A DNA stretch of 36,234 nt from a virus. The notes under the pieces were generated by a model. It was not told the DNA's origin, ran no database searches, and saw only the letters and a program-made list of their open reading frames with translations. Made by a program: the position numbers and the translations under genes. This document shows positions 23,625-34,158 of this stretch, one piece after another. Position 1 is the stretch's first letter, and each line of letters opens with the position of its first letter. The stretch covers positions 1-36,234 of IMG/VR virus record IMGVR_UViG_3300007346_000088. One strand, given 5' to 3'.

Positions 23625-23751
23625 AGTTTTGAAAAACCTCAATAATCGCTTCTAGTAGTCGTTCCTGGTCATCGGTGCAGTCACCGCTAGCAATCACAGC
23701 ATCGACAACGTCTATGCAAATCTGAATGCCTGCCATGACATCCTCGTTCAT
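23611..23751 (-). CDS. Micro-protein (46 residues), acidic
   Basis: Short frame MNEDVMAGIQICIDVVDAV, then ERLLEAIIEVFQNYDGE. Its ATG overlaps the regulator's stop (ATGA), and it ends inside the start of the putative small terminase gene. It predicts two amphipathic helices and no motif. The overlap chain supports a translated gene. Acidic and small, it could be a partner of the regulator encoded just before it. Confidence 0.55.
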   Translation of the reverse strand: MNEDVMAGIQICIDVVDAVIASGDCTDDQERLLEAIIEVFQNYDGE

Positions 23752-24365
23752 GCTGCCGGCAACTTCTCTAGCTCAACCACGTAATCCACGCTCATTCCAT
23801 AAGGCTTGAATGCTTCTAACAGCTTACGTGATAGCACCTCTGGGAAGGCGTTCATCTCGCCAGCCTCATACCTCGAGACCACAGCCGGGTTTACCCGCAG
23901 CATGCTAGCGAGCGCCGTAGGCGTCTTCGCCACATCTGAGCGCCACTGTCTAAACGATTTGTAGTACTGGCCCAAGGTGTAGGGCGGTATCAGCATTAGG
24001 TTCGCTACTGCTGGCGGTGCTTCGATCTCAAGCGGGGCGGATGCAAATTGCTTGCACTGCTCTCGCAGCTCTTCAGCCGTGATGCCCAGACCCGTGACAA
24101 GTGGTGCCAAGATGGCATCGCTAGGTGTCTTAGTCCTGCCATCCTCGATAGCTGTCACAGCTGCGCGGTTCACGCCTGCTCGCTTTGCTAGCTCGACCTG
24201 AGATATGCCCAGCTGCAATCTAGCTAGGCGAATCGGGTGATTATTTATTCGCGCCACAGTCGCTCTCCCTGCAAACAGAAAGTCTTTTGCCACACTCATT
24301 GCAAGGTGGGATCTGCTGGTCATCGATAAATATTGCTCTCCCTGGTGAGGGATGAATCCATACAT
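23748..24365 (-). CDS. Tandem helix-turn-helix (XRE-like) transcriptional regulator
   Basis: 205 residues with two HTH domains. The first, about 46-98, has RLARLQLGISQVELAKRAGV and AVTAIEDGRTKTPSDA, the classic Cro/C1 pattern. The second, about 138-192, has TPTALASMLRVNPAVVSRYE and then GEMNAFPEVL. A Pro-rich linker lies between. The likely role is repressor or switch of early genes. The -10 box of its promoter (24374-24379) is part of a TACTCATG element also found at three other promoters, so self-control is likely. With that promoter the mRNA would begin almost at the ATG (leaderless). Starting at M15 (24323), after GGGAGAG, is the alternative. Confidence 0.8.
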   Translation of the reverse strand: MYGFIPHQGEQYLSMTSRSHLAMSVAKDFLFAGRATVARINNHPIRLARLQLGISQVELAKRAGVNRAAVTAIEDGRTKTPSDAILAPLVTGLGITAEELREQCKQFASAPLEIEAPPAVANLMLIPPYTLGQYYKSFRQWRSDVAKTPTALASMLRVNPAVVSRYEAGEMNAFPEVLSRKLLEAFKPYGMSVDYVVELEKLPAA

Positions 24366-26285: not shown

Positions 26286-26543
26286 ATGAACACCTTAGAA
26301 ATGCACAAATGCGATTGTGGCAACGATGCCGACAATTACCTACCAACAGAGACACCGCTTGCGGGCTACCCCCCTCAATGTTCTGATTGTGCACACGCCG
26401 ACGAATGCCCATGGCCTGAAGACGGCGCATTTACCTATGGCCACGCAATTGCAAGTTGCAACAGTTGCACCTATAAGTGTGGCCTTTGGGAATGCGGTTG
26501 TGACCTAAACCACTCTTGCAAAGACTACCCACGAAACTACTAA
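26286..26543 (+). CDS. Cys-rich small protein, probable zinc binder
   Basis: 85 residues with eleven cysteines: CDC near residue 9, CSDCAHADEC (about 32-41), then CNSCTYKCGLWECGC (about 58-72) and one more. The first spacings fit two or more zinc knuckles. The pattern is not one I can name. It is the first gene after promoter 3 and has an AGGAGATAACA ribosome site identical in style to its neighbours. It may be an early protein that binds host proteins or nucleic acid. Confidence 0.7.
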   Translation: MNTLEMHKCDCGNDADNYLPTETPLAGYPPQCSDCAHADECPWPEDGAFTYGHAIASCNSCTYKCGLWECGCDLNHSCKDYPRNY

Positions 26544-28489: not shown

Positions 28490-29095
28490 ATGACCGATTA
28501 TCACCCAATCTACGGCGAGCTTTTGACCTCTCGCCAGACCTCTGACCTGACTGGTTACACTATGAATCAGTTGCGAAATTTCCGTCAGAGAACCGACACA
28601 GCACCCTTCGGATTCGTCCGACAAGGAGGCACATCTTGGTATCGCAAAGACGACATCGAGGCATGGCTTGAAAAGAATGGTGCAGTCGAATACGAGTATG
28701 TTGCACCCCCAAGTGGCATCACCACCCCACTTCGCTCAACTGTTACCGATGCAAAGACTCGTGAGCACTTGGCAGAACTAGCCAAGATCACGACAAAGAA
28801 TGCATGGGGTTCACATGGCACATGGCTAACTGAGCAATCAGGGCTATCAGATGCCCACAACAGGGTGAACGAATGGGCAGAGGAGCTATGGAATCTCCAC
28901 CGCTCTGACAACCCCGATGCAGAAGAGTTCATGGCTTTGAACTTCTCTCGTGTTGACAATCCGGCTCAGTATTGGCCTGCCATTACTTGGGCTGTTCGCA
29001 AAGCCACGGCTTTTGTGCGCGGATGGAATGATGTAACCGATGCAGAGATAATGGAGATACCAGTGGGAGAAGTTCCACCAAGTAAGGTTGTATAA
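28490..29095 (+). CDS. DNA-binding protein with N-terminal MerR/excisionase-type wHTH
   Basis: 201 residues. Residues about 11-65 match a winged helix of the excisionase/MerR type: LLTSRQTSDLTGYTMNQLRN, then the wing GGTSWYRKDDIEAWLEKNG. The remaining 130 residues are helical with several Trp and look like a partner- or DNA-binding domain that I cannot name. It is the first gene of the replication operon and its promoter carries the strongest operator in the window. It may be a replication initiator, origin-binding protein or switch regulator. Confidence 0.7.
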   Translation: MTDYHPIYGELLTSRQTSDLTGYTMNQLRNFRQRTDTAPFGFVRQGGTSWYRKDDIEAWLEKNGAVEYEYVAPPSGITTPLRSTVTDAKTREHLAELAKITTKNAWGSHGTWLTEQSGLSDAHNRVNEWAEELWNLHRSDNPDAEEFMALNFSRVDNPAQYWPAITWAVRKATAFVRGWNDVTDAEIMEIPVGEVPPSKVV

Positions 29096-29096
29096 A

Positions 29097-29129
29097 AGAA
29101 ATCCCCCGAGGATTTCTCAACTCGGGGGA
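29097..29129 (+). promoter_or_regulatory. Mutually exclusive hairpins (attenuator-like)
   Basis: AGAAATCC (29097-29104) can pair with GGATTTCT (29110-29117). TCCCCCGAG (29102-29110) can pair with CTCGGGGGA (29121-29129). The two stems share 29102-29104 and 29110, so only one can form. The second resembles a terminator but is followed by CTTCTCTG, not by Ts; the same CTTCTCTGAAAGGAG-type tail follows the hairpin at 34825-34870 with four extra bases. Confidence 0.5.
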
Positions 29130-29149
29130 CTTCTCTGAAAGGAGTAACT

Positions 29150-29209
29150 ATGACCAAGAACCACCAAGGTCACGACCAGACTATAACACAATCGAAAGAG
29201 TGCAATTGA
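29150..29209 (+). CDS. Leader micro-ORF (19 residues)
   Basis: ATG with AAAGGAG six bases upstream encodes MTKNHQGHDQTITQSKECN and stops at TGA 29207-29209, overlapping the TTG start (29206) of the next gene. The strong ribosome site belongs to this frame, not to the larger gene, so it probably loads ribosomes for it. A frameshift joining the two is the alternative. Confidence 0.45.
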   Translation: MTKNHQGHDQTITQSKECN

Positions 29210-29508
29210 GTAAAACGCAAAAAACTTCACTGAACTATTTACTACAAGAAGCACTTGAGAATGGTCGGTGGGAGCTCGTTTCGGCTGAGGGCAACTCAGA
29301 GAAGTGGGTCAGAGGAGATGAAACTGTCACCATTGCAAAGAACCTACTTCGTAGCACTGAACCGCCAAGCGTAATCTTTGAGGTGTTCGAGCCCGAGATC
29401 AACTTCAGAAGAACTGATTCACTTGTTATGAATCTGTTATGTCTGAGGCTTGCCAAATCCTCAAAGATGTCATCTTGGTATGATAAATTGTCTACTACAA
29501 CTGAATAG
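29206..29508 (+). CDS. Hypothetical protein, start coupled to leader ORF
   Basis: 100 residues if started at TTG 29206 (AAAGAG five bases upstream, TTGA overlap with the leader); GTG 29200 would add two. A basic helical N-terminus (LSKTQKTSLNYLLQEALENG) precedes a beta-rich middle with EKWVRGDETVTIAKNLL. It resembles small phage DNA-contact proteins in shape only. Not recognised. Confidence 0.6.
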   Translation: MSKTQKTSLNYLLQEALENGRWELVSAEGNSEKWVRGDETVTIAKNLLRSTEPPSVIFEVFEPEINFRRTDSLVMNLLCLRLAKSSKMSSWYDKLSTTTE

Positions 29509-29534
29509 CAAACTACAAGAAAGAGAGTAACCAA

Positions 29535-29768
29535 ATGGACACAATGACCAAATCAGCAGGCATCGCACTAAATGTCTGGCAAGAAGAAGACACCTGGCTC
29601 ATGTCGCTTTACCCTGAAAGTGAAGCCGGCATCGATTCCAGTAGCTACATCCGCCTTGACTACAGCAGAAGGCAACTACAGCGATACTTCGACATCACCG
29701 ATGACGATGATTGGTGGACTAGTGACACGGAGGAGCTGGAGTGGATTCTCTTCGGCACACGCCCATGA
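29535..29768 (+). CDS. Small acidic hypothetical protein
   Basis: 77 residues with a Trp/Asp-rich C-terminus (FDITDDDDWWTSDTEELEW). The N-terminal half may form a beta hairpin. Not recognised. AGAGAGTAACCAA precedes the ATG, and the stop overlaps the next gene (ATGA). Confidence 0.65.
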   Translation: MDTMTKSAGIALNVWQEEDTWLMSLYPESEAGIDSSSYIRLDYSRRQLQRYFDITDDDDWWTSDTEELEWILFGTRP

Positions 29769-30112
29769 ACGATGATGAGGAATTCGAAGAAGTCCCTGAG
29801 TTCCTCACGGGCTTGGCAGAGAAGTTAGATGCCAGACCCCACCTGATCGCGACACGACTCGGCAAAAGGTATTCACCACGGCGGTTCAAGCGGGCAGTTA
29901 GACGGCTATGCAGACACTTCGGCATACCGGCAAACCTGACCTCGCTAATCGCTGTCACCTCGATGCACGATTACGAGTTGGCAATCTTTGACCAGTATTT
30001 GTTTCTGTTCAGAGTTGACACAGACTTCGCTGAAGTAGTAGCTTACGAACCAGCGATGCTACACGCAACACTAACCATGGAAGATGACACACGCATCGTC
30101 CAATTTGTATAA
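29765..30112 (+). CDS. Hypothetical protein with basic centre
   Basis: 115 residues from ATG 29765, which overlaps the previous stop; an in-frame ATG at 29741 lies inside that gene and is less likely. An acidic start (MNDDEEFEEVPEF) is followed by a strongly basic stretch (about 34-50: GKRYSPRRFKRAVRRLC) and a beta-rich end. The basic helix suggests nucleic-acid contact. Not recognised. Confidence 0.65.
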   Translation: MNDDEEFEEVPEFLTGLAEKLDARPHLIATRLGKRYSPRRFKRAVRRLCRHFGIPANLTSLIAVTSMHDYELAIFDQYLFLFRVDTDFAEVVAYEPAMLHATLTMEDDTRIVQFV

Positions 30113-30121
30113 GGAGACTAA

Positions 30122-30499
30122 ATGAGTAACGCAACCACCGACCGCCAGCTACTAGATGATGCCAAGGCAAAGCTAGTAACCAAGGCGAAAGAATCCAAGT
30201 CATCGACCAAGTCGGTCGAGGCTACCGATGCCACCCTTGCTAACGAACTGCTAGCCAAGCGTGGCGAGATCTACGATGCCAAGAAGAAGCTCACTGATGA
30301 GCTGGCTGAGATTGATGCCATCATCAAGGACATGATTGGCTCGGCTGACCAACTCACCATTCATGGTGCCAAGGTCGCATCCATTGCACGCTGGCGTGAG
30401 ACAGCCCTGATTACTGACACGGTGAAGACCACCTTCCCTGTTGCTGAGTATCCAGAGCTTTACAAGCGCACCAGCAAGACACGGCTCACGGTGCACTAA
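30122..30499 (+). CDS. Nuclease-associated coiled-coil protein (phage recombination type)
   Basis: 125 residues. A helical region (about 35-75: ELLAKRGEIYDAKKKLTDEL and DAIIKDMIG) precedes a small beta part and the C-terminal motif TFPVAEYPELYKRTSKTRL. That combination (charged coil, G-x-x-V-A strand, then P-x-L-Y near the end) is familiar from small phage proteins encoded with exonucleases and ssDNA-binding proteins. Exact function unknown. AAGGAGACTAA precedes the ATG. The stop and next start overlap. Confidence 0.65.
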   Translation: MSNATTDRQLLDDAKAKLVTKAKESKSSTKSVEATDATLANELLAKRGEIYDAKKKLTDELAEIDAIIKDMIGSADQLTIHGAKVASIARWRETALITDTVKTTFPVAEYPELYKRTSKTRLTVH

Positions 30500-30774
30500 T
30501 GATTAGCTTTGCAAGAGTTCGCGAGCCAGAGAAGGGTAACCCCTTCTGCGAGTGCATCCACAACAGGGAACTCGAGCACGAGGTAAACCCTGAGCTCACC
30601 TACTTCGTCATGAGTGATGATGTCCATGAGAAATGGGGCATTGACTACGAGCTAGGCGAAATGCTTATCTACAGCCCTGACTTCGGTCACCCCGAACACG
30701 GTGATGACCGGTGCCTGTGGGTTGCCCAAACAATTGACTTTGATTTCTTTATGTTAGGTGAGGAGAGACCATGA
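30499..30774 (+). CDS. Hypothetical protein
   Basis: 91 acidic residues. Contains CECIHNRELEHEVNPEL near the N-terminus and several His/Asp/Glu (FGHPEHGDDRC), so metal binding is possible. Not recognised. One base overlaps the preceding gene and four overlap the next (ATGA). Confidence 0.6.
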   Translation: MISFARVREPEKGNPFCECIHNRELEHEVNPELTYFVMSDDVHEKWGIDYELGEMLIYSPDFGHPEHGDDRCLWVAQTIDFDFFMLGEERP

Positions 30775-31001
30775 GACCAAGGATCAGAGATGTTATCGAT
30801 GACATCATCGATGGCCTCTACTCCAAGCGATTGGATGAGGCATTCGAGATGGGTATTCGTGAGGGCTCACGGCGAGCACTCAGTTCAGCAAAGATTCGCA
30901 TTGAGATGCGAGCCAACAGCCTCACTCCGGCTAGAAAAGTAGGTGCAGAGATGGCTGTTGAGACTATCGAGGAGGAGCAGGAGCAATGGAAAAGAAGGTA
31001 G
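30771..31001 (+). CDS. Small helical hypothetical protein
   Basis: 76 residues, almost all predicted helix, alternating Arg and Glu (RRALSSAKIRIEMRANSL). GAGGAGAGACC lies before the ATG, and the gene overlaps both neighbours. Not recognised; charge pattern suggests a dimeric coil. Confidence 0.6.
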   Translation: MRPRIRDVIDDIIDGLYSKRLDEAFEMGIREGSRRALSSAKIRIEMRANSLTPARKVGAEMAVETIEEEQEQWKRR

Positions 31002-31150
31002 AGGTAGACCGCGACCACGCTGTATACCGGTGCCCCTCTTGTGAGCACTTCTTTCTTGTCGATGGCTGGTCAGAAGAAAACGACATTTGCACACTATGCC
31101 TTGAAGGCTTTGAGATGACTCCAGGAGCTGAAGATGGCAATTCTATTTGA
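30986..31150 (+). CDS. Zinc-ribbon micro-protein 1 (54 residues)
   Basis: Short frame starting MEKKVEVDRDHAVYRCPSCE and later CTLC: C16, C19, C35 and C38 form a complete CxxC...CxxC ribbon. Strong GGAGCAGGAG before the ATG. It overlaps the previous gene by 16 bases and the next by 17. Such ribbons bind DNA, RNA or polymerase; target unknown. Confidence 0.65.
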   Translation: MEKKVEVDRDHAVYRCPSCEHFFLVDGWSEENDICTLCLEGFEMTPGAEDGNSI

Positions 31151-31316
31151 AAGAAACGGGGATTGGCCCGACAGCGATGAAGACTACAGGAAGATATATG
31201 AAGAACCGGACGAAGATTATTGCTTTTTTTGCGAGCGCCCTACTGGGTGTATTTGCGACGAAGTATACGACTTTCAGCAAGAACAAGAGATCATGGATGA
31301 CTTTGACAATGAGTGA
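31134..31316 (+). CDS. Zinc-binding micro-protein 2 (60 residues)
   Basis: Acidic, with CFFCERPTGCIC in the middle (four cysteines in 12 residues) and a Gln/Glu/Asp tail. CAGGAG is eight bases before the ATG. It overlaps ribbon 1 by 17 bases and ribbon 3 by eight. A compact zinc knuckle is likely. Function unknown. Confidence 0.65.
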   Translation: MAILFERNGDWPDSDEDYRKIYEEPDEDYCFFCERPTGCICDEVYDFQQEQEIMDDFDNE

Positions 31317-31419
31317 CACACACTTCATGTGCAGGGACTGCAACCGCATTTACGAAACAACTTCGCGTGGCGAAGGTGAAGTAAACATTTGCAAGTACTG
31401 CAGTTATGAAGTCGACTGA
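31309..31419 (+). CDS. Zinc-ribbon micro-protein 3 (36 residues)
   Basis: MSDTHFMCRDCNRIYETTSR, then GEGEVNICKYCSYEVD: C8, C11, C28 and C31 form a minimal zinc ribbon. A longer in-frame extension to 31147 lies inside the previous gene and is rejected. Its stop and the WhiB start overlap by one base (TGATG), so the two are coupled. Confidence 0.6.
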   Translation: MSDTHFMCRDCNRIYETTSRGEGEVNICKYCSYEVD

Positions 31420-31730
31420 TGACCGGCAAGATTGGATTCTTTACCAACCATGAGAAACAACGCGCTTGGCTACAACTAGCCAAGAAAGTAGGAGATGTCG
31501 GCCTTGACCACATACCTTGTGCTCAAGCGCCCGACCTCTTCTTTCCCGAAGTAGACCCGAAGCTAGGCCACCCGCTTAGCTACATGAGAACAGCAAAGAA
31601 GGCTTGCAAGACTTGCCCGATCTTGTTGGACTGCGCTGCATACGCAATCGAGTTCAATGAAGATGAAGGCATCTGGGGAGGCATGAGCCCCGGCGAGCGT
31701 AAACAAATGCGAAGGAGACGAAATGCCTAA
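31419..31730 (+). CDS. WhiB-family Fe-S transcription regulator
   Basis: 103 residues. The four cluster cysteines are present at C34, C63, C66 and C72 (C-x28-C-x2-C-x5-C), followed by the diagnostic G84-I-W-G-G88 turn and a basic tail (GERKQMRRRRN). WhiB proteins bind a 4Fe-4S cluster and contact the host primary sigma factor region 4. Phage copies can block or redirect host WhiB. Three tiny zinc proteins precede it in one overlapping run. The family is restricted to actinobacteria and their phages, so this fixes the likely host group. Confidence 0.92.
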   Translation: MTGKIGFFTNHEKQRAWLQLAKKVGDVGLDHIPCAQAPDLFFPEVDPKLGHPLSYMRTAKKACKTCPILLDCAAYAIEFNEDEGIWGGMSPGERKQMRRRRNA

Positions 31731-32280
31731 CTTAGAAAGGCGTTACACACCCCAAGAGGGTAAGGAAGCACATGCTTGGATTTTTGGACTCATCGATGCA
31801 CTTGAGTTCTTCCAAACAGGATACGACATACACAAAAAAGACCCCGACTGGTTCGGGCTAGTCGCCCCGCAAATGATTGCAGACATCGCAAACTTTGCGG
31901 AAGAAAACTGGAAGGATGAATTTGACCAACTTAAAGGAATCAGTACTGTACCCGTATCAGAGGGAAGCAGTGGAGCAGATAGTAGAGAAGAAGCGCGTAC
32001 TGCTAGCAGACCAACCTGGATTGGGGAAAACGCTGGAGGTGCTGAGTGGGCTGGAGGAACTAGACCTGTTCAACCCGAAGGACAGCCACGCCATTCTCAT
32101 TCTCACCCCTCTTGTAAATGTGAGAAGCGCTTGGATCAGGACGATAGAGCAGTTCGTCTTACCGAGATACCCACAAACGGTTGTGGTGGATCTGGGCACT
32201 GGTTCATCAACAAAGAAGGACACCTTATTGGCGTCTGCTCTTGCCTCGCCAGCTACGGCCCCGATAGTAGTAGTAGCTAA
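31723..32280 (+). CDS. Hypothetical protein with overprinted tail
   Basis: 185 residues as read. The first 70 residues look real: MPNLERRYTPQEGKEAHAWI, then helical ALEFFQTGYDIHKK, with a strong AAGGAGACGAA before the ATG. From about residue 65 the frame runs inside the helicase gene (31916 onward) and becomes Ser/Gly/Pro/His-rich. That looks like a side effect of the other frame. The original stop may have been lost, or the tail may be overprinted. Function unknown. Confidence 0.5.
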   Translation: MPNLERRYTPQEGKEAHAWIFGLIDALEFFQTGYDIHKKDPDWFGLVAPQMIADIANFAEENWKDEFDQLKGISTVPVSEGSSGADSREEARTASRPTWIGENAGGAEWAGGTRPVQPEGQPRHSHSHPSCKCEKRLDQDDRAVRLTEIPTNGCGGSGHWFINKEGHLIGVCSCLASYGPDSSSS

Positions 32281-33418
32281 CCACGATGCTGTTTCGCTAG
32301 TAAAGGGGCGTCCACGCGTCCCCTCACTAGGCGAACCATTCTGGAGTGCAGTCGTCATCGACGAATCGCACAACGTGCTACCTATCACCACGCCAAACAA
32401 GCTGACTAACTTCTGGAAAGGATTGCTGAAGCTACAGATGTATGACCCATCAGACCCCATACGCATAGCTGTATCTGGTACGCCAGATCGTGGCAAGCCT
32501 GAGTATCGCTACGGCACATGGCGTTTTCTCAATCCGGCGCTCGCACCAGAGAACCATTGGAGCTGGCTTGAGAAGCACTTTAATGTCTATGAGCGACAGG
32601 TAACCAAGACTCGCAAGGTCAAGATGATTGGAAGCATGCGCAGTCCATCGAGCTGGCTCGAGACAGACAAGCGTGTAGTCATTCGGCGCACCAAAGAAGA
32701 GGTTCTGCCACAGCTACCACCAAAGACCTACCACTTCATCGAGCTACCCATGACCAAGGAACAGCGTGAGCTGTATCGTGAGGCAGAGCAAGAGGCATTC
32801 ATCGAAGCAGTTCACACGCCCAATGCCCTGATGACCTTTGCTATCAAGGCTAGGCAGATGGCCACCTACACTGAGGCTGGCAGTAACAAGCTTGAGTGGG
32901 TAACTCAGTGGCTGAGTGAGCGCGGTTACCTGGAGGATCTCGGCATCGACGGCAAAGTTGTCATCGCGAGCCAGTTCGTCAAGACTCTGCACTGGCTCAG
33001 AGATGAGCTCGCAATCTTAAATGTCCCCACCCTGATGTTAACTGGTGACATGACTGCTAACGCCAAAGCAAATGCTCAGGCCAGATTCCAAGACCCAGAT
33101 GACCCAGTGCGCATTATCCTGCTCTCCGGTGGCATGGGTGTTGGTATCGACCTCGACATTGCTGATGACCTAATCATGCTCGACTTGCCTTACGACCCCG
33201 ACAAGCTTGAGCAGATTGAAGACCGCATTCACCGTGCATCCAACATGCACAAGGTTACGATTTGGCACCTACTCAGCAAAGACTCCATCGACATGGCTAT
33301 TGCAGAGAAGTCTGCATCTAGGCACAAAACAATCCGCGCCCTACTCGATGGCGCAAGGGGTATAGACTTTAGTCGCAAGGTAGTCGCTTATGCTACCGGC
33401 GAGACGGAGACGGAGTAA
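31916..33418 (+). CDS. SNF2-type superfamily 2 helicase / translocase
   Basis: 500 residues from ATG 31916. Motif order: YPYQREAV (Q-like, 12-19), Walker A QPGLGKT (33-39), DESH (149-152), SGTP (187-190), a second domain with ILLSGGMGVGIDLDIAD, and motif VI QIEDRIHRAS. SNF2-like phage proteins act in replication, recombination or branch migration. It precedes a Cas4-like nuclease and is coupled to it by one base (TAATG). The ribosome site for this start is poor. A TTG at 31877 is possible but falls inside the previous gene. Confidence 0.87.
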   Translation: MNLTNLKESVLYPYQREAVEQIVEKKRVLLADQPGLGKTLEVLSGLEELDLFNPKDSHAILILTPLVNVRSAWIRTIEQFVLPRYPQTVVVDLGTGSSTKKDTLLASALASPATAPIVVVANHDAVSLVKGRPRVPSLGEPFWSAVVIDESHNVLPITTPNKLTNFWKGLLKLQMYDPSDPIRIAVSGTPDRGKPEYRYGTWRFLNPALAPENHWSWLEKHFNVYERQVTKTRKVKMIGSMRSPSSWLETDKRVVIRRTKEEVLPQLPPKTYHFIELPMTKEQRELYREAEQEAFIEAVHTPNALMTFAIKARQMATYTEAGSNKLEWVTQWLSERGYLEDLGIDGKVVIASQFVKTLHWLRDELAILNVPTLMLTGDMTANAKANAQARFQDPDDPVRIILLSGGMGVGIDLDIADDLIMLDLPYDPDKLEQIEDRIHRASNMHKVTIWHLLSKDSIDMAIAEKSASRHKTIRALLDGARGIDFSRKVVAYATGETETE

Positions 33419-34158
33419 TGGCGATAATCAAACTGCTTGATGGCGACCCAACAAAAACAGATGAGGTTGCGCTAGCTGCTGCAAACACTTGGATGACACG
33501 AATCCCTGAGCTGTTTGTAACTGAGCGCTCCAAGCAGGTACAGCTAGGTATCTCCGAAGTCGGAATGGATTGTCGCAAGTGCGTAGCAAGAAAGCTCGCA
33601 CTCAAGCCCAGGATCATCGACGGCTCTTGGTACCCATTTATCGGCACCGCTGTGCACGACCAGCTTGAGCATGGTTTCAATGATCGCTGGCCAGAAGAAT
33701 ACAAACTTGAAGAGCGCTTGCACGTTCACGAATACAAAGACCTCAAGCTCGGTGGCTCTTGCGACATGTTCGCTTGGCAGGACGGCACCGTCAACGATTG
33801 GAAGGTCGTCGGTGCCAACGCCTTGGGCGAAGCTCGCAGAGGCAAAGTCAAGCAGCAGTACCGAGTGCAGGCTATGCTCTACGGCTACGGCTGGGAGCAA
33901 AAAGGATTTGACGTCACGCACGTCTCACTAAGTTTCCTCCCTCGGGAGGGAAAACTAGAGGAAGCTGTTGTCGCTATCATGCGATACGATAAGCAGCTTG
34001 CTCTCGACTCACTAGCCCAGTTGGAATCAATGATTGATGCAGCTGAGATAGTGGGATGGGATGCAATCATAGAGAAGGCACCTAAGGCAAGCTTTTGTTT
34101 TAGTTGTCGTCGCTATGAGCAGACCGAACACAACGACGTAGAGTCGTTGCTTCCATAA
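33418..34158 (+). CDS. Cas4/RecB-like exonuclease with Fe-S cluster cysteines
   Basis: 246 residues. PD-(D/E)XK motifs: GTAVHDQLE (H80), GGSCDMF (D116), VNDWK (D127, K129) and QQYRVQAMLY. Four cysteines flank the core: C52 and C55 in DCRKC near the N-terminus, C227 and C230 in CFSCRR at the C-terminus. This is the arrangement that holds a 4Fe-4S cluster in Cas4 and AddB-type nucleases. It should resect DNA ends during phage recombination or replication. No Cas1, Cas2 or CRISPR repeat is nearby, so a CRISPR role is not supported. Confidence 0.85.
   Translation: MAIIKLLDGDPTKTDEVALAAANTWMTRIPELFVTERSKQVQLGISEVGMDCRKCVARKLALKPRIIDGSWYPFIGTAVHDQLEHGFNDRWPEEYKLEERLHVHEYKDLKLGGSCDMFAWQDGTVNDWKVVGANALGEARRGKVKQQYRVQAMLYGYGWEQKGFDVTHVSLSFLPREGKLEEAVVAIMRYDKQLALDSLAQLESMIDAAEIVGWDAIIEKAPKASFCFSCRRYEQTEHNDVESLLP

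Follow-up and report, generated by a model that had tools for sequence, protein, structure and literature searches.

Phage early regions hold many tiny genes with no assigned role, and several described systems are close to the one analyzed here, as known from the available passages of the papers cited below. CxxC micro-proteins have been found in viruses such as the HF1-group haloviruses (PMC7230728; also PMC10716476 and PMC6562870), and they form a loose kind rather than a family. Orf73 of phage lambda is a small C4 zinc protein encoded in the exo-xis region that binds RNA polymerase, and a role has been described for the conserved aspartates of TraR/DksA proteins (PMC9239242). In cluster EK actinophages, whiB lies near replication genes, a helicase and a Cas4-family exonuclease, and the WhiB protein of phage TM4 is described as inhibiting expression of host whiB2 (PMC8612146). 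Freshwater actinophages commonly carry whiB (PMC10202952, PMC6802176). Wbl proteins contain a G[I/V]W[G/A]G motif, and F17, F18 and W60 of WhiB1 are required for its binding to region 4 of sigma-A (PMC10245118).

The window, the whole stretch of DNA analyzed here, is one virus record of 36,234 bases. Relatives are given as L followed by a number; the most informative is L009 (IMGVR_UViG_3300008113_000270), whose helicase is 77% identical to that of the window. The genes under study are arranged as follows.
30122..30499, plus strand: conserved 125-aa gene that marks the interval on its left; weak match to the C-terminal part of a RecE-like exonuclease (phrog_434, 3e-6)
30499..30774, plus strand: 91-aa gene with no assigned function, conserved in L009 (dN/dS 0.32)
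30771..31001, plus strand: 76-aa gene with no assigned function, overlapping P1 by 16 nt; homologue in L009
30986..31150, plus strand: P1, 54-aa acidic micro-protein, CxxC-x15-CxxC, ATG start
31134..31316, plus strand: P2, 60-aa very acidic micro-protein (net -17), CxxC-x5-CxCD, ATG start
31309..31419, plus strand: P3, 36-aa acidic micro-protein, CxxC-x16-CxxC, ATG start
31419..31730, plus strand: WhiB-like protein, 103 aa, with four cysteines and GIWGG (Pfam Whib, 1.7e-15)
31723..32280, plus strand: 185-aa ORF whose last 365 nt also lie in the helicase gene, read in a different frame
31916..33418, plus strand: SNF2-family helicase (SNF2-rel_dom, 1.7e-23)
33418..34158, plus strand: exonuclease-family protein (phrog_1674, 1.5e-45)

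The sequence-only reading had described P1, P2 and P3 as genes of 54, 60 and 36 residues that overlap one another and then the WhiB gene, and both the coordinates and the lengths proved correct, with overlaps of 17 nt for P1/P2, 8 nt for P2/P3 and 1 nt for P3/WhiB. The start codon region of P3 overlaps the P2 stop. Each protein had also been credited with one CxxC-type zinc site. The amount of zinc holds, as four cysteines apiece are predicted to be enough for one zinc, but the motif is really four cysteines in two pairs. All three proteins have fewer than 100 residues with CxxC pairs and thus belong to the viral CxxC micro-proteins. Among ORFs of at least 28 aa in the window, the four-cysteine pattern is present in 6 of 172 on the plus strand and 2 of 242 on the minus strand, and P1–P3 account for three of these 8 in 414, a clustering that exceeds chance. 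Overlapping as such is not special in this region, where nearly all genes from 30499 to 34158 overlap their next gene, and no promoter- or terminator-like sites were found on the plus strand from 29000 to 32506. A longer P3 starting from a TTG at 31147 would overlap P2; its extra part has a dN/dS of 0.82 and is most simply taken for a shadow of P2. An 85-aa ORF with 11 cysteines at 26286-26543 in the same early region is another possible zinc protein.

The gene order of the window is found again in L009, where genes of 124, 87 and 71 aa are followed by P1, P2, P3, WhiB, a 187-aa ORF and the helicase. The 125-aa gene product is 84% identical in L009 (57% in L012), the 76-aa gene homologue keeps the identical 16-nt overlap with P1, and P1/P2 and P2/P3 overlap by 17 and 8 nt just as they do in the window. 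Unlike in the window, P3 and WhiB do not overlap in L009 and are 1 nt apart; P1 of L009 requires a TTG start. P1 is 56% identical between the two, and the dN/dS values are 0.30 for P1, 0.27 for P2, 0.31 for P3 and 0.21 for WhiB, with synonymous distances ranging from about 0.9 to 2. Because dN/dS is low, P1–P3 are protein genes under purifying selection. Reading the ORFs as frames that are open by chance or in decay, or as simple stores of zinc, would fit their shortness and the low identity of P3 between relatives (0.24). However, the dN/dS of about 0.3 per gene, the retention of all 12 cysteines of P1–P3 in L009 and the Shine-Dalgarno-like sites upstream of P1 (GGAGGAG) and P2 (AGGAG) make this highly improbable.

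P1–P3 are part of a cluster, found throughout the family, of small acidic modules with four cysteines and predicted zinc binding; it sits just upstream of an SNF2 helicase in a run of overlapping genes. Alignment searches retrieved the helicase at 26 loci and the 125-aa gene at 17, in partly shared records. The interval from the 125-aa gene to the helicase is complete in 25 records, comprising 18 of the 26 helicase loci, the window, and L040, L043, L044, L045, L047 and L054. The 25 do not include L008, a copy of the window's region, or L010, L011, L031, L032 and L033, which are fragments or have no upstream part; L013 and L014 were left out of the analysis. Because near copies are present among the 25 (L021/L023/L035 and L043/L045), they represent fewer than 25 independent lineages. 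Four-cysteine ORFs are present in all 25 intervals, 47 on the coding strand versus 3 on the reverse. The P2 motif C-x2-C-x(3-8)-C-x-C-D occurs in 19 intervals, having been lost in L019, L043, L045 and L047, while P3-type ORFs occur in 14 and WhiB in 11. The helicase linkage is thus constant among close relatives and may reflect the shared descent of one phage family. Two further helicase loci in which no 125-aa gene was seen speak against constant linkage: no zinc ORF adjoins the helicase in L020 (helicase 50% identical), and none lies upstream of it in L034 (36%).

Linkage to WhiB is optional. Pfam WhiB is found above its cut-off in 19 of 30 records, and predicted zinc ORFs are retained in every one of the 14 intervals without WhiB. 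In 12 of these 14, the last zinc ORF runs into a possible start codon of the helicase gene, mostly with an overlap of 4 nt; the overlapping ORF in L026, L029 and L036 encodes a different Cys-rich protein of 117-180 aa, and another ORF lies between the last zinc ORF and the helicase in L022 and L054. A 31-aa P3-type ORF stands immediately before the helicase in L021, L023, L035 and L037, records without any Pfam WhiB. The modules themselves have split and joined. The P2 domain forms the C-terminal part of a 67-94-aa fusion protein in nine loci, and the N-terminal part of this fusion, a second CxxC domain, is a separate 45-69-aa ORF in ten other loci (profile match, 96.7%). Such fission and fusion of zinc modules would usually mark parts that work together. 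Many relatives, not the window, also carry a gene for a small Cys protein of the MPSVRE-CxCGAE type after the 125-aa gene:
L017:1288-1521, L018:4189-4422 and others: 77-79-aa gene, MPSVRE-CxCGAE type

A phage carries between 1 and 5 zinc modules, of varying type, and such variation would be expected if P1–P3 were independent host-takeover effectors, each with its own target such as a nuclease, RNA polymerase or a defence protein, and owed their place in the early operon to timing alone. Lambda Orf73 (PMC9239242) and the CxxC micro-proteins of HF1-group haloviruses (PMC7230728), as far as the available passages describe them, provide precedents. The net charge is negative in all members of each set (P2, 19 of 19; P3, 8 of 8; P1, 2 of 2), with a pI of 4.05-4.94. 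This argues against direct binding of the P1–P3 sets to DNA, as judged from composition, and strong acidity would fit DNA mimicry or the masking of a basic partner. The charge is nevertheless weak evidence, because small early proteins of this phage are generally acidic. A fixed site before the helicase with stop/start overlap exceeds what timing needs, and P1–P3 have no match worth naming among known families: none above the curated cut-offs of Pfam and NCBIfam, and nothing in PHROGs better than E 0.012. Independent effectors are considered a rather unlikely, although not negligible, explanation.

Structure prediction and profile comparison yield little more. The AlphaFold model of P2 is poor (pLDDT 54), and that of P3 is a weak hairpin (pLDDT 65.5) for which Foldseek gives no match below E 1. 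Searched against the PDB, the P2 family matches C2H2 fingers alone, none better than E 0.027, and these are taken as chance. Comparison of P1 with the P3 family profile gives a probability of only 20.9, and the FmdB-type zinc ribbon model TIGR02605 scores 13.4 bits for P1 against a cut-off of 31.3. Searching 50,697 phage records by tblastn, with P1–P3 and two family members as queries, gave nothing useful; a peptide match of P1 to L005 lies in a different, GC-rich context and was rejected as chance.

The WhiB gene at 31419-31730 is what the sequence-only reading took it to be, with a Pfam Whib score of 57.8 bits against a gathering cut-off of 23.6. Its cysteines, the putative [4Fe-4S] ligands, are spaced C-x28-C-x2-C-x5-C, and all four (C34, C63, C66 and C72) are invariant in 8 family members. 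C63, C66 and C72 align to chain positions 37, 40 and 46 of WhiB1 (match to structure 6ono, 7.6e-13), residues 84-88 (GIWGG) conform to the G[I/V]W[G/A]G turn, and F41, F42 and W86 align with F17, F18 and W60 of WhiB1. Judging from these residues, the phage WhiB very likely binds host sigma-A.

The linkage was also examined from the side of WhiB, in 61 WhiB loci, 21 with the family helicase downstream (at least 45% identity) and 40 without. A locus with a weak 24% helicase-like match (L112) was placed in the 40. More than 500 nt of upstream sequence is available in 19 of the 21; L066 and L075, with only 51 and 73 nt, were excluded from the 19, L102 has 197 nt, and L062 is a near-identical copy of the window. 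Another WhiB locus, L003, has a different context and was set aside. P2- or P3-type ORFs lie upstream of WhiB in 19 of 19 loci with the family helicase versus 0 of 40 without; any four-cysteine ORF within 1,200 nt upstream is found in 9 of the 40. Therefore, the linkage is to the helicase module. Conserved linkage to whiB in other phages, on which the sequence-only reading was staked, does hold within this phage family, at all 19 loci.

The proposal that P1–P3 and WhiB share a host target, sigma or RNA polymerase, has several points in its favour: the micro-genes adjoin and overlap WhiB in the window, the string stands beside WhiB in other family members, WhiB retains the sigma-A-binding aromatics, and the cysteines of P3 (CxxC-x16-CxxC) are spaced much as they are in the C4 finger of TraR and Orf73. 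However, the string persists in the 14 intervals without WhiB, these motif types are missing from all 40 WhiB loci without the helicase, and WhiB lies downstream of the helicase, apart from the zinc ORFs, in seven loci (L020, L024, L025, L027, L028, L029 and L054). P3 has only 7 residues before its first Cys, and the TraR/DksA zinc-finger model is absent from the Pfam matches of P1 and P3 at E up to 1. None of the results link the micro-proteins to sigma or RNA polymerase. Because the string stays with the helicase and not with WhiB, work for WhiB is not the best idea, and joint action appears unlikely. When relatives are compared, two neighbours that seem to be one system come apart: the zinc genes go with the helicase, and WhiB is variable.

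The 185-aa ORF between WhiB and the helicase shares 31916-32280 with the helicase gene in another frame. Counted onward from a fixed motif of the helicase, this alternative frame remains open for 267-294 nt in all 10 loci that have the ORF, and closes within 15-42 nt in 17 loci without it (120 nt in L025) and at 15 nt in seven further loci, 24 in total. When the helicase codons are shuffled synonymously, between 0 and 48 of the 1,000 shuffles made for each locus leave the frame open over such a length; yet its amino-acid identity is no higher than that of control frames and windows. The alternative frame is kept stop-free, yet its sequence is little constrained.

Elsewhere in the window, a cI-type HTH regulator (23748-24365, minus strand) and an excisionase-like HTH protein (28490-29095, plus strand) hint at a temperate history of the phage. 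The terminase (1075-2610) is 45% identical to those of the Arthrobacter phages Brad and Adat (Jasminevirus), and the packaging module is therefore related to cultured phages. A scan of a genome collection with the helicase gave six matches of 23-43% identity with no actinobacterium among them, so neither a host nor a prophage was found.

The best explanation, to which we give a probability of roughly 45%, is that P1–P3 are protein-binding zinc adaptors of the phage replication and recombination machinery, made in step with the helicase. Each micro-protein would fold round one zinc, its translation would be coupled to that of the gene after it, and together they may serve as adaptors or regulators of the helicase, the exonuclease and the 125-aa protein. 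WhiB, travelling with this module as a separate passenger, would bind the host primary sigma. More broadly, it is possible, although we hold this only tentatively, that the helicase-tied acidic zinc micro-proteins represent a new class of trans-acting phage replication and recombination factors. Such a class would have arisen as tiny modules were repeatedly gained, lost, split and fused, and WhiB, part of the same translational chain, would connect it optionally to host sigma. Phage DNA metabolism is thus the first direction for experiments, in which proteins of 31 to 94 aa would be set against one large partner.

P1–P3 resemble the described viral CxxC micro-proteins in being very small, carrying CxxC motifs, lying outside the virion genes and having mostly unassigned roles. 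The described ones differ in being archaeal, the available passages report no tie to an SNF2 helicase or WhiB, and the two are likened by description only. Sub-threshold matches of P1 to FmdB-type and of P3 to RPB9-type zinc ribbons are such as two-CxxC ribbons give, but every one is below its curated cut-off. The TraR/DksA family, including Orf73, is comparable in that a small C4 zinc protein of a phage is encoded next to recombination genes in an early operon, and in a cysteine spacing like that of P3. TraR/DksA proteins have an N-terminal arm before the finger, whereas P3, with 36 aa, has no room for it, and P1 has 15 residues before its first Cys. The whiB loci of cluster EK actinophages are alike in their gene neighbours, but the available text of PMC8612146 describes no zinc micro-protein string. 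Arthrobacter phage Ottawa has a WhiB gene that overlaps the helicase gene following it (genes 60-61; the helicase is 22% identical to that of the window), but no coding-strand zinc micro-ORF is present in the 8.3-kb stretch examined. No description of a helicase-tied zinc micro-protein string was found in open-access papers; a WhiB gene adjoining a helicase is already known, because the cluster EK phages and Ottawa have such loci.
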